Of a stretch of DNA of 64,000 nt, positions 31,151 to 40,988 are shown in pieces. Under the pieces are notes generated by a model that saw only the letters and a list, made by a program, of their open reading frames with translations, ran no database searches and was not told the DNA's origin. Numbering within the stretch: position 1 is the stretch's first letter; every line of letters starts with the position of its first letter. Made by a program: the position numbers and the translations under genes. Source of the DNA: Actinomycetes bacterium (lineage in GTDB: Bacteria > Actinomycetota > Acidimicrobiia > Acidimicrobiales > Ilumatobacteraceae); NCBI GenBank assembly GCA_029782355.1, contig JAKOUY010000002.1, positions 62,001 through 126,000 of the forward strand, in the 5' to 3' direction.

Positions 31151-31684
31151 CTACCAGCGCCAGCGCGTCGCCCGGGCGGCGAACTCGTCGGGCCGCTCGA
31201 TCACCCCGAAGGCGCGGCGCGGCGTCACCTCGAACAGGGCGTTGGCCCGCAGGAAGGCATCCATCGAGGCGTGCTCCTGCTCGTCGGGCCAGTACTTGGC
31301 GAGATAGGCGCCGACGACTGCGTCCACGGCGCCGAGCGCGCCGGGGTCGGCCGCATCGACCCGCCGGGCGAGGCCCTCGACCGACACGCATTCGACGGTG
31401 TCGTCGACGGCGACCACGCACTGCGGGTTGGCCGCCAGGTTGGCCACCTTGCGGGCCGTGGGGGCGCAGGAGAACCAGAACCGGTCGGCCGGGTCGGCCG
31501 TTCCCGCCGGCATCCACACTCCCCACACCGGCATCGCATGGGGGCGGCCGGCGGCCGAGGCGGTGACGACCCAGTAGTTGCGATTGGGGACCAGGCGGGC
31601 CTCGGCCCAGGCCCATGGCAGCGCCCCGTCCACGTCGGCGGGAACCCCGTAGTCGGCCATCGCCGGTCGCTCGACCCGCGGCAT
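31151..31684 (-). CDS. Pyridoxamine 5'-phosphate oxidase-like flavin/F420 protein
   Basis: A 177-residue split-barrel protein of the PPOX superfamily. MPVWGVWMPAG, FWFSCAPTARKVANLAANPQ and VVAVDDTVECVSVEG follow the strand order of FMN- or F420-binding PPOX proteins, which reduce or bind small quinones, biliverdin or nitro compounds. The ATG at 31682-31684 is 7 bases after TACCGT; a longer frame to 31732 runs past that promoter. Given two other F420-type enzymes nearby, F420 is a reasonable cofactor guess. Confidence 0.8.
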   Translation of the reverse strand: MPRVERPAMADYGVPADVDGALPWAWAEARLVPNRNYWVVTASAAGRPHAMPVWGVWMPAGTADPADRFWFSCAPTARKVANLAANPQCVVAVDDTVECVSVEGLARRVDAADPGALGAVDAVVGAYLAKYWPDEQEHASMDAFLRANALFEVTPRRAFGVIERPDEFAARATRWRW

Positions 31685-31691
31685 GCGCCGG

Positions 31692-31697
31692 ACGGTA
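31692..31697 (-). promoter_or_regulatory. Leaderless -10 hexamer TACCGT of the PPOX gene
   Basis: TACCGT on the minus strand ends 7 bases before the ATG at 31682-31684. Confidence 0.5.
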
Positions 31698-31812
31698 GCA
31701 GCCGAACACGGAACGCCGGTCACCCGGTTCACGCGCCGCCCAGGCCTTGGCGCGCACCGACTCGGTGACGTCGGGCTGGTCGACGATCAGCTGTTGAACC
31801 GACCCCGGCCGG

Positions 31813-32721
31813 TCAGCCCGGCGCCAGGGCGGCGAGCGCCCCGGTGTCCGGGCGACCCGGGGTGTCCGGCTGGATGGCCTGGACGCAGACGTGGTCGGCA
31901 CCGGCCGCATGGTGGGCGCCGATCCGCCGGCGCAGGGCGTCGGGCGAGCCCCAGGCCACCAGGGCATCGAGGAAGGCCGGATCACCGCCGTCGATCTGGG
32001 CGTCGGTGAACCCGAGACGCAGCCAGTTGTTGCGATAGTTCGGGAAGTTGAGATACATCGCCAGCGCGGCCCGGATGGTTCGGTGGGCGGCGTCGCGGTC
32101 CTCGGTCAGGACGACCTTCTGCTCGACGCACACCAGCTTGTCCTGCCCCAGCAGCCGGCGGGCCTCGGCGGTGTGCTCGGGCGTGGTCCAGTACGGATGG
32201 ATCCCGTCGGCCAGCTCGCCGGCGAGGGCGATCATCTTCGGACCGAGCGCGGCTAGCACCACCGGCACCGGCTCGGACGGCGGCGGGGCGAAGCTCATCG
32301 ATTCGGCGTAGGCCCCGAGGTAGGCGCGCATCGTGGCCAGCGGCCGCTCGTACGGCAGATGGCGGATGCCCGACACCAGCGGGGCGTGGCTGACGCCCAG
32401 GCCGAGCACGAAGCGGTTTCCGGTCTGCTCGGCCAGCGTGAGCGCACCTTGGCGCATCACCCCGGGATGGCGATGATGGATGTTGGCGATGCCCGTGGCC
32501 ACGACCAGCCCGCCGACGGCGTCGGCCAGGTGGCCGAGGTGGACCAGCGGGTCGCGGCCCAGGGTCTCCGGATGCCACAGCGTGGTGTACCCCCACGCCC
32601 GCACCTGGCGGGCGAACTGGCCGGCGTCGGCCACGGCCATGCCATCGGTGCTGGCCCACACGCCGAGCGGTCCGAGGCGGGCGCGCCACGCCGCCAATCC
32701 GGCCGGGTCGAGCGTGCTCAC
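31813..32721 (-). CDS. LLM-class F420-dependent oxidoreductase
   Basis: A 302-residue luciferase-like TIM-barrel enzyme, close in pattern to the TIGR03620 group. Visible are RLGPLGVWASTDGM at the N-terminus, GYTTLWHPETLGRDPL, TGIANIHHRHPGVMRQGALTL and RFVLGLGVSHAPLV, all usual in F420-dependent members. The GTG at 32719-32721 has GGAGGT 8 bases upstream, inside the end of the preceding gene, and only 4 bases separate the two genes. It is therefore the last gene of plsC / CxxU protein / LLM. The substrate is unknown. Confidence 0.9.
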   Translation of the reverse strand: MSTLDPAGLAAWRARLGPLGVWASTDGMAVADAGQFARQVRAWGYTTLWHPETLGRDPLVHLGHLADAVGGLVVATGIANIHHRHPGVMRQGALTLAEQTGNRFVLGLGVSHAPLVSGIRHLPYERPLATMRAYLGAYAESMSFAPPPSEPVPVVLAALGPKMIALAGELADGIHPYWTTPEHTAEARRLLGQDKLVCVEQKVVLTEDRDAAHRTIRAALAMYLNFPNYRNNWLRLGFTDAQIDGGDPAFLDALVAWGSPDALRRRIGAHHAAGADHVCVQAIQPDTPGRPDTGALAALAPG

Positions 32722-32725
32722 CGGA

Positions 32726-33220
32726 TCACACCTCCAACGGGCAGCTCGACTCGACCTGCATCACCTGCATCACCCGGCCGAGGCCCAGCCAGCTGGCGAT
32801 CGAGTAGGTGGCGTCGAGGATCTGGCCGTCGCTCAACCCACCGTGGCGCAGCCGGTCGATCAACGCCTGGTCGATGTTTAGGTGGTCGATGCAGAACTGC
32901 TCGGCGTACTGGATGGCCGCCCGCTCCAGGTCGGAGTAGCCGGGGTACGTGGCCCACGCCTCGACGTTGGCGTAGTCCGCCTCGGTCAGTCCGTGCTGGT
33001 CCAACTGGCCAGCTCGGGCGTTCGTTCATATGACGCACTGATTGATCCGGGCGACGCGCATCCGCATCAGCTCGCGCAGCCGGACCGGCAGATCGGCCTG
33101 GTCGTACACCGCCTTGCTGAACGTGCCGGCGGCACGAGCCACCGCCGGCGACAGGCGTCCGAGGCGACGGTAGTTGTCGCCCTCGCCGTCAGGGATGTCC
33201 AGGCGTGGCTGCAGATCCAT
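32726..33220 (-). CDS. Carboxymuconolactone decarboxylase/AhpD-like selenoprotein with CxxU motif (in-frame TGA read as Sec)
   Basis: Read through one TGA (33026-33028), the frame gives a complete 164-residue protein. The first 64 residues end RVARINQCVI; the TGA is codon 65; the continuation TNARAGQLDQHGLTEADY is in the same frame and completes the helical fold (YPGYSDLERAAIQYAEQF, then the C-terminus). In homologues this position is the second Cys of a CxxC redox pair, so the product has Cys62-x-x-Sec65. A bacterial SECIS-like stem-loop lies just downstream (32991-33017). The family acts as thiol peroxidase or disulfide reductase. The ATG is at 33218-33220; a GTG one codon upstream (33223) is 6 bases after TACAGT and may be the true leaderless start. 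It overlaps the end of plsC by 32 bases. The alternative is a nonsense-mutated pseudogene; the exact position of the TGA and the hairpin argue against that. Confidence 0.82.
32991..33017 (-). promoter_or_regulatory. Candidate bacterial SECIS element
   Basis: Counting from the base after TGA, bases 13-17 (GCUGG) pair with 27-31 (CCAGC), bases 18-19 (CC) with 24-25 (GG), with A26 bulged. The apical loop is AGUU (bases 20-23). An outer stem of CCG (9-11) with CGG (33-35) is separated by an A-A mismatch. The loop is 19 bases after UGA and has G as its second base; both match the bacterial SECIS model (loop 16-37 nt from UGA, G in the first two loop positions). Confidence 0.7.
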
Positions 33221-34097
33221 CACCGCCGGACTGTACCGGGGGCCGAACCTCGCCGGCTGCCTGGGCGCGCATTGCCGCCAGCTCCGTGGCGATGCGCTGG
33301 TGCACCTGATCGCGCAACGCGCCGAACTCGCGCATCTCCCGGTCGGCCGTCTCGATCGGTTCGAGGACCCGGACCTCGGCATTGCTGACCCCGAAGCGCC
33401 AGTCGCCCTTGACCAGCGCGGTGTCCGCCCCGTTGACCACCAGTGGCAGGATCGGGGTGCCGGTCTCGATGGCCAGTCGGAACGCTCCGTTCTTGAACGG
33501 CTGCAGCTCGCCGGTCCGGCTGCGGGTGCCCTCCGGGAAGATCATCACGCTGACCCGCTTGGACAGCCGGTCGCGCATCTCGTCCATGGCCTGCTTGGCA
33601 CTGTCCCGCTCGCCGCGGACGATCTTGATGTCGCCGGCCATGCGCATCATCCACCCGATGAGCGGATAGCGGAAGAAGGCGTCCTTGGACAGCCACTTCA
33701 TCTCCCACGGCAGATGCGAGATCAGCAGGATGTCGACGAAGCTCTGGTGGTTGGACACGACGATGTACGGCCGCCGCGGGTCGGTGATCCGCACGCCGGA
33801 GGTGTGGAAGCGCCACAGTGGGTTGAGCCGCTGATGGACCACGGTGAGCTTGCGGAACAGGTAGCCGGCAGCGTACCGGCCCCGGTCGAACGGGGCGGTC
33901 ACCAGCCACACGGCGCCGACCAGCGGGACCCAGATGACGATCACCACCCCGAGCACCAGCCAGGCCCACACGGACAGCACGGTGCGCATCACCGCGTTGC
34001 CGAGGATCCGCCGGCGGATGGCCAGCCGGCGAGCGAGCCTCGGGCGGGTCACGGCCGGCGACGGGTCGGACGAAGGCGCAGGCGCGGGCGATGCCAT
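33189..34097 (-). CDS. plsC: 1-acyl-sn-glycerol-3-phosphate acyltransferase
   Basis: A 302-residue membrane-associated acyltransferase that makes phosphatidic acid from lysophosphatidic acid. After a basic N-terminus there is a hydrophobic anchor (about residues 40-70). Motif I is NHQSFVDILL (NHxxxxD), motif III is FPEGTRSRTGEL, and the proline motif is TPILPLVV. The tail after about residue 280 is variable and overlaps the start of the CxxU gene. ATG at 34095-34097 follows a weak CACGAT hexamer by 6 bases and is divergent from cdd. Confidence 0.92.
   Translation of the reverse strand: MASPAPAPSSDPSPAVTRPRLARRLAIRRRILGNAVMRTVLSVWAWLVLGVVIVIWVPLVGAVWLVTAPFDRGRYAAGYLFRKLTVVHQRLNPLWRFHTSGVRITDPRRPYIVVSNHQSFVDILLISHLPWEMKWLSKDAFFRYPLIGWMMRMAGDIKIVRGERDSAKQAMDEMRDRLSKRVSVMIFPEGTRSRTGELQPFKNGAFRLAIETGTPILPLVVNGADTALVKGDWRFGVSNAEVRVLEPIETADREMREFGALRDQVHQRIATELAAMRAQAAGEVRPPVQSGGDGSAATPGHP
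33230..33235 (-). promoter_or_regulatory. Leaderless -10 hexamer TACAGT of the selenoprotein gene
   Basis: TACAGT on the minus strand lies 6 bases before a GTG (33221-33223) and 9 before the ATG of the CxxU gene, within the 3' end of plsC. It could drive the CxxU and LLM genes separately from plsC. Confidence 0.4.
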
Positions 34098-34170
34098 CGC
34101 GCCATCGTGGCACGGCCCGCCCGAGCCGCTGCGGTCGACCCTGCCGCGGCCGGCGCCGCGGGACACGGCC

Positions 34171-39707: not shown

Positions 39708-40250
39708 TCACCGGGCTCCGAGGGCGCGGACCAGCAGGCTGACGGTCTTGGCCCCGCCGTCGGTGTCCTGCTGGCCGACCTCGACGAAGCCCAGACCGGC
39801 GTGCAGGCGCAGCGAGGACTCGTTGCGCGGCCGCAGGTTGACCTCGCAGCACAGCTCGGGGAACCGTCCGGTCAGGGCGGTGAACACCTCGCCGTACATC
39901 GCCGTGGCGATCCCCAGCCGTCGGGCCGCCGGGGCGACGGCGATGCGGTCGAGGTAGGCGAACGCCTGCCGGCCGCCATCACGGCGCCGGAACCACTGGT
40001 AGTTCAGGCTGGCGTAGTCCTCGCCCGGTCCGTAGACCAGGCAGAAGCCGGCCACGCCCGGCGACCTGCCGTCCCCGGCGGGCAGACCGGACGGGGTCAC
40101 CACGGCCACCAGGGCCACCACGGCCAGGCCGTGCAGTCGGGCGATGCCGTCCCGATCGAGGGCGTTGACGCCCGGGGTGTTCGAGTTGTTCATCTCGAGC
40201 ACCTCGTCGAGATCGTCGGGCACCATCGGGCGGATCGTGAAGGCCGGCAC
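39708..40250 (-). CDS. GNAT-family N-acetyltransferase
   Basis: A 180-residue GNAT. The acetyl-CoA loop is seen in RIAVAPAARRLGIATAMYGEV (Arg/Gln-x-x-Gly-x-Gly/Ala variant as RRLGIA). The N-terminus VPAFTIRPMVPDDLDEVLEMN is typical. The C-terminal HAGLGFVEVGQQ is the usual last strand region. GTG at 40248-40250 is 7 bases after TAGCCT; the frame open to 40955 overlaps msrA and is not coding. Substrate unknown. Confidence 0.87.
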   Translation of the reverse strand: MPAFTIRPMVPDDLDEVLEMNNSNTPGVNALDRDGIARLHGLAVVALVAVVTPSGLPAGDGRSPGVAGFCLVYGPGEDYASLNYQWFRRRDGGRQAFAYLDRIAVAPAARRLGIATAMYGEVFTALTGRFPELCCEVNLRPRNESSLRLHAGLGFVEVGQQDTDGGAKTVSLLVRALGAR

Positions 40251-40257
40251 CCGCCGC

Positions 40258-40263
40258 AGGCTA
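40258..40263 (-). promoter_or_regulatory. Leaderless -10 hexamer TAGCCT of the GNAT gene
   Basis: TAGCCT on the minus strand ends 7 bases before the GTG at 40248-40250. Confidence 0.5.
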
Positions 40264-40309
40264 CGGCGCGACGCCCGGTGCCGCCCTCCCGCGGTCGACC
40301 GCGCTGCAG

Positions 40310-40315
40310 TAACGT
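40310..40315 (+). promoter_or_regulatory. Leaderless -10 hexamer TAACGT of msrA
   Basis: TAACGT ends 7 bases before the ATG at 40323. It is divergent from the GNAT promoter about 50 bases away. Confidence 0.5.
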
Positions 40316-40322
40316 CCGGGGA

Positions 40323-40988
40323 ATGGCATCGTCCGGTGCGTCGTGGTGGTCGTCTCGAGCCGGCCGGGAGGCCGAGTTGGTCGGCGCGGCCGACGCCCTT
40401 CCCGGCCGCGCCGAACGGATGCCGGTGCCCGCCAACCACCTGGTCCACGGGCGACCGCTGGTCGGTCCGTGGCCGGACGGGCACGAGGCCGTGGTCCTCG
40501 GCATGGGCTGCTTCTGGGGCGGTGAGGAGCTGTTCTGGTCGATGCCCGGCGTGTACACCACCGCGGTCGGGTACGCCGGGGGGCACACCCCGAACCCGAC
40601 CTACGAGGAGACCTGCACCGGCCGGACCGGCCACGCCGAGGTCGTCCTGGTGGTCTACGACCCGCAGGTGACCACCCTCGACCGCCTGCTGAACACGTTC
40701 TGGGAGCATCACGACCCGACCCAGGGGTTCCGCCAGGGCAACGACCTCGGCTCGCAGTACCGGTCGGCGATCCTGACCACCACGGATCCCCAGGCGACGA
40801 CCGCCGAGGCGTCCCGGCAGCGCTACCAGCGCGCCCTCGATGACGCCGGCTACGGGCCGATCACCACGGAGATCACCCCGCTGATCGCCTTCTACTACGC
40901 CGAGCCGTACCACCAGCAGTACCTGATCACCCACCCGCACGGCTATCGCTGCCATGCCGCGACCGGGGTGATGGTCCCGCCTGCGTGA
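40323..40988 (+). CDS. msrA: Peptide methionine (S)-S-oxide reductase MsrA
   Basis: A 221-residue repair enzyme reducing methionine-S-sulfoxide. The catalytic motif is VVLGMGCFWGGEELF near residue 63. EETCTGRTGHAEVVLVVYDP, FWEHHDPTQGFRQGNDLGSQYRS and YHQQYLITHPHGYRC, which holds a possible resolving Cys, are all present. The N-terminal extension of about 50 residues is usual for actinobacterial MsrA. Leaderless start. Confidence 0.95.
   Translation: MASSGASWWSSRAGREAELVGAADALPGRAERMPVPANHLVHGRPLVGPWPDGHEAVVLGMGCFWGGEELFWSMPGVYTTAVGYAGGHTPNPTYEETCTGRTGHAEVVLVVYDPQVTTLDRLLNTFWEHHDPTQGFRQGNDLGSQYRSAILTTTDPQATTAEASRQRYQRALDDAGYGPITTEITPLIAFYYAEPYHQQYLITHPHGYRCHAATGVMVPPA

Follow-up and report, generated by a model that had tools for sequence, protein, structure and literature searches.

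The minus strand of the window (the whole 64,000-nucleotide stretch analysed here) carries, from 33220 to 32726, an AhpD/CMD-like gene interrupted by a single in-frame TGA. The initial annotation had proposed this gene as a probable selenoprotein but did not give its strand. The gene lies in a run of genes on the same strand, and the features of the locus are as follows.

33189..34166, minus strand: plsC-like acyltransferase, upstream neighbour (PF01553, E=1e-31), overlapping the start of the AhpD-like gene by 32 bases.
32726..33220, minus strand: predicted AhpD/CMD-like selenoprotein gene of 164 codons, with ATG at 33220 and TGA stop at 32726-32728 (CMD PF02627, E=8e-13; AF2 model pLDDT 92).
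33035..33037, minus strand: codon 62, encoding Cys62, the putative CxxU partner of Sec65 (invariant in 86/86 homologous loci).
33026..33028, minus strand: in-frame TGA at codon 65, predicted from its TGA/Cys homologues to be read as selenocysteine (C62-V-I-U65).
32995..33013, minus strand: predicted bacterial SECIS hairpin, GCUGGCC-AGUU-GG(A)CCAGC (from folding, presence in 52/52 TGA against 0/34 Cys homologues, and covariation).
31813..32721, minus strand: F420-dependent LLM-class oxidoreductase, downstream neighbour (TIGR03620, 273 bits against a cut-off of 219.8).
31151..31732, minus strand: PPOX-class F420-dependent oxidoreductase-like gene, third in the same-strand run (TIGR03618, E=2e-14, below cut-off).

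When TGA is translated as U, the minus-strand reading from 33220 to 32726 runs MDLQPRLDIP...RINQCVI-U65-TNARAG...SSCPLEV and then meets the terminal TGA, giving a joined product of 164 residues. The earlier description of two half-genes in one frame with exactly one TGA between them agrees with this structure: codon 65 is the only internal TGA among the 164 codons, the first half ends in NQCVI and the second begins TNARAGQ. The second half was also said to have no nearby ATG or GTG start, and the only alternative found is a TTG at 33004, 8 codons past the TGA. This TTG would be needed if the locus held two genes, or if translation terminated deliberately at codon 65 to leave a short first-half protein and a second half restarting downstream. 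However, the Cys-containing homologues are single continuous proteins of similar length and the predicted fold spans both halves, and we regard such an arrangement as extremely improbable. The joined protein matches the CMD family PF02627 with 48.6 bits, above the gathering cut-off of 23, and its AF2 model (pTM 0.88) adopts an all-helical AhpD fold across both halves. The best PDB matches, 2gmy, 2ijc and 6k40, are all AhpD-like. The claim that read-through would place a CxxU motif within a complete AhpD-type fold is consistent with this confident prediction, as the joined protein possesses both the AhpD/CMD fold and the motif.

The six frames of the window contain 1207 TGA codons, of which 383 are flanked by at least 30 open codons on each side; when they are ranked by how protein-like the codon usage is to either side, the TGA at codon 65 comes second. 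The three remaining top-ranking TGA-bridged frames (49400+, 42709- and 57649-) were rejected as selenoproteins: each is a normal boundary between two genes, with an ATG no more than about 10 codons past the TGA. The rank of codon 65, and the presence of a TGA at this position in dozens of further genomes, uphold the view that a TGA at the redox residue did not arise by chance decay. Elsewhere in the host genome, no internal stop was found in its two other CMD genes, which lie at G000:C7:439026-439265 (L120) and G000:C1:80406-80639 (L121), nor in five molybdopterin-domain matches. Another thiol-redox gene was seen among the translated open reading frames of the window, encoding an MsrA-like protein with a GCFWGG motif at 40200-40988 on the plus strand.

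The host genome (3.79 Mb in 40 contigs, 98% complete) encodes the machinery for selenocysteine incorporation. The initial annotation had suggested a search for selA, selB, selD and tRNA-Sec(UCA), and all four were found above curated cut-offs: tRNA-Sec with anticodon TCA at 65.6 bits (cut-off 47), selA at 369 bits (267.9), selB at 284.7 bits (242.25) and selD at 329 bits (125). The selB gene is located directly downstream of selA, and the pair shares a contig with the window, which it precedes by about 55 kb. In the family, the presence of selA did not distinguish Sec-form from Cys-form genomes, as selA occurs in 167 of the 222 genomes, Cys-form genomes included.

A search of these 222 genomes of the family returned 30 close homologues, the window's own counted, of which 25 have TGA at codon 65 and five have Cys. 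When order and phylum searches were added, the set grew to 86 homologous loci, in which codon 65 is TGA in 52 and TGC or TGT in 34, with no other codon and with conserved flanks. Homologues with Cys at residue 65 had been named beforehand as support for selenocysteine, and these 34 loci provide them beside the 52 TGA forms. The closest relatives are TGA-bearing and 46-48% identical over residues 5-164. Among 80 loci in named genomes, 31 carry TGA and 49 Cys; some of these genomes are shared with the 86-locus set, and the counts are not additive. The named loci were obtained by scanning with the alignment; a scan with the single protein gave none. Most named TGA loci belong to Acidimicrobiales or Acidimicrobiia, and others to further actinobacterial assemblies, including Candidatus Microthrix, while the Cys loci come from Mycobacterium, Solimonas and some actinobacterial assemblies. 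In the tree, parsimony places seven Sec/Cys changes, at least five of which are forced by well-supported branches; the bootstrap of this tree had yet to converge completely, and the window's row sits on a long branch.

A few records stand apart by their taxonomic titles. A metagenome-assembled genome titled Myxococcota (L128, JAPYTP010000001.1) has a TGA form that shares 45% identity with the window's protein and carries its own SECIS-like hairpin, which may reflect either horizontal transfer or a misbinned contig. Two metagenome-assembled genome records with this AhpD-like gene are titled Bifidobacterium breve (L146 and L190), titles that look wrong.

This distribution bears on two other origins of the TGA. 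A misreading of TGC, TGT or TGG as TGA in the host genome is conceivable in a 40-contig assembly, where one base could be wrong; nevertheless, the identical TGA recurs in assemblies made independently, among them a single-contig genome (L048/L131), and the window's gene has its own SECIS hairpin, leaving a sequencing or assembly error with hardly any probability. The gene could also be a pseudogene whose Cys codon decayed to a stop, as TGC or TGT becomes TGA by a single-base change and premature stops are common in decay. Against this, 52 loci spanning many genera have the TGA at this single codon and a frame that is otherwise open, so that the decayed frames in close relatives that were proposed as a refutation of selenocysteine are not seen. 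The hairpin described below is, moreover, retained by the TGA forms only and shows SECIS covariation, and we count the pseudogene reading as already refuted and almost certainly wrong.

The predicted SECIS hairpin is positioned inside the coding sequence, just 3' of the UGA, with its apical loop at 33006-33003 and a conserved G at 33005. At fixed alignment positions, all 52 TGA genes retain 6-8 of the 8 pairs in the stem and have G at one invariant position of the loop, whereas the 34 Cys genes retain only 0-5 of the 8 pairs and lack the hairpin. In six of the eight stem pairs, both partners have changed. Covariation scores 0.446, compared with 0.213 for shuffles, with none of 500 shuffles as high, and the score falls to 0.153 or less if the partner strand is displaced. 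The hairpin is not explained by the protein sequence, since Cys forms such as L018 (RAASAMAQG) keep a nearly identical peptide and have lost the hairpin. The window's own hairpin has a bulge, differs from those of its relatives at 2 of 8 positions and exceeds 98% of synonymous recodings in stability (the other 2% are as stable); considered alone, this hairpin is unusual only to a moderate degree, and the case is carried by the comparative evidence. A TGA form at another locus (L199, match start 225) has the hairpin CCCGC-AGUU-GCGGG in a shifted register with the AGUU loop kept, which suggests that the stem register can move.

The gene structure, the Sec/Cys exchange, the SECIS element and the decoding machinery were thus each established computationally, and these sequence comparisons indicate that the gene is, with near certainty, a genuine selenoprotein gene in which UGA65 specifies selenocysteine. 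In the mechanism we propose, UGA65 would be decoded as selenocysteine by the host SelA, SelB, SelD and tRNA-Sec, directed by the SECIS hairpin within the coding sequence 3' of the UGA.

The residue pattern partly departs from that of classical AhpD. Across the 86 loci, E50, N60, C62 and R69 are invariant and position 65 is U or C; H113 is invariant in the 52 Sec forms, and about 60% of the loci retain C160, near the C-terminus. The His found four residues past the second Cys or Sec in classical AhpD (E...CxxC-x3-H) is not present, Arg69 standing in its place. The AhpD-like proteins PA0269 and Atu0492 (2o4d, 2ijc, 7xw1, 2gmy) share the fold and the CxxC position, but have Cys where the window's protein has Sec, and PA0269 has the His where the window's protein has Arg. 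Mycobacterial CMD proteins (among L147-L206), with the motif N-D-C-V-A-C-S-[DG]-F-R, are about 40% identical and share both the motif position and the Arg; unlike the window's gene, they have Cys and no SECIS hairpin. The protein reaches no NCBIfam model at its own cut-off. The best NCBIfam match is TIGR01926, peroxidase-related enzyme (E=3.8e-13, residues 27-156), at 49.6 bits, under the curated cut-off of 81.8. The YciW-related (seleno)protein model NF053654 matches all 53 alignment members (best member E 2.6e-20), although the window's protein scores 47 bits, under the curated cut-off of 310.

From fold and family we infer what the protein catalyses, with which residues and on which substrate; it is probably a peroxidase like AhpD, or a dithiol-type reductase, that works through Cys62 and Sec65. 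The Cys62-x-x-Sec65 pair would form a selenenyl-sulfide redox centre, in which one member (probably Sec65, as selenolate) would attack the substrate and the other (Cys62) resolve, while Glu50, Arg69 and His113 may tune the site or relay protons. It is possible, if somewhat improbable, that the selenoprotein is not a peroxidase and performs another thiol or selenol reaction on the AhpD fold, such as dehalogenation or disulfide reduction. The replacement of the AhpD His by an invariant Arg points this way, as do the AhpD-fold debrominase Bmp8 among the PDB matches and the loci of several relatives, which lie close to genes resembling those for P450, SDR, enoyl-CoA hydratase or ABC transporters and not to peroxiredoxins (assigned by eye from sequence); the closest-matching families, however, are annotated as peroxidase-related.

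The neighbourhood was rejected as a guide to function. The plsC-like, AhpD-like and LLM-class genes all run in one direction, the LLM-class gene starting 4 bases past the AhpD-like stop, and the initial annotation had treated the plsC and F420 luciferase-like neighbours as distinctive. This did not hold: tblastn searches of up to 5 kb on each side of the homologue in 20 relatives found neither plsC, the LLM or PPOX genes nor further window genes beside it; the only matches were weak ones, at paralogue level, to other genes of the window. When the relatives' neighbours were clustered, scattered groups were obtained, the largest being ABC-transporter-like with 8 loci (named by eye, not by HMM). 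As the plsC and F420 enzymes were not seen in the 20 relatives, the neighbourhood defines no system and supports no functional link, and it is probably incidental.

AhpD-like selenoproteins with a CxxU motif have been published since 2005, and the window's gene is not a new kind. The Sargasso Sea survey reported 27 AhpD-like CxxU sequences (PMC1088965), the GOS survey 299 AhpD-like 1 and 70 AhpD-like 2 sequences (PMC2398784), and a 2026 review lists AhpD-like selenoproteins under TIGR01926 and PF02627 (PMC13188914). AhpD-like 1 corresponds to COG2128 and AhpD-like 2, or CMD, to pfam02627, both with the CxxU motif (PMC1088965, PMC2398784). The initial annotation was therefore right that such proteins are known from metagenomes, but its C-x-x-U form is not new (PMC1088965, PMC2398784, PMC13188914). 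Membership of the CMD/AhpD family, Sec in the second redox position of CxxU, a SECIS element just downstream and common Cys homologues are all shared with the published proteins; the difference is that no NCBIfam model reaches the window's branch at cut-off. What is modestly new is this branch, order-wide in Acidimicrobiales, beyond every NCBIfam cut-off and with Arg for the usual AhpD His, although it may already be among the published metagenomic sequences. No literature descriptions of selenoproteins in Acidimicrobiia or Ilumatobacter were found. A speculative and rather unlikely extension is that these proteins are a selenoenzyme branch of the AhpD fold in their own right (CxxU-x3-R), so far uncurated and characteristic of Acidimicrobiales, in which Arg in place of His would mark a chemistry different from classical alkyl hydroperoxide reduction, perhaps linked to lipid or xenobiotic catabolism.

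Where annotation treats TGA only as a stop, the gene would look truncated or broken, and in many actinobacterial genomes the enzyme would consequently be overlooked or cut in half. The Sec/Cys exchanges, at least five in number and accompanied by gain or loss of the hairpin, would form a clean natural series in which to study the contribution of selenium, and the Cys form in cultured mycobacteria would offer an accessible comparison.
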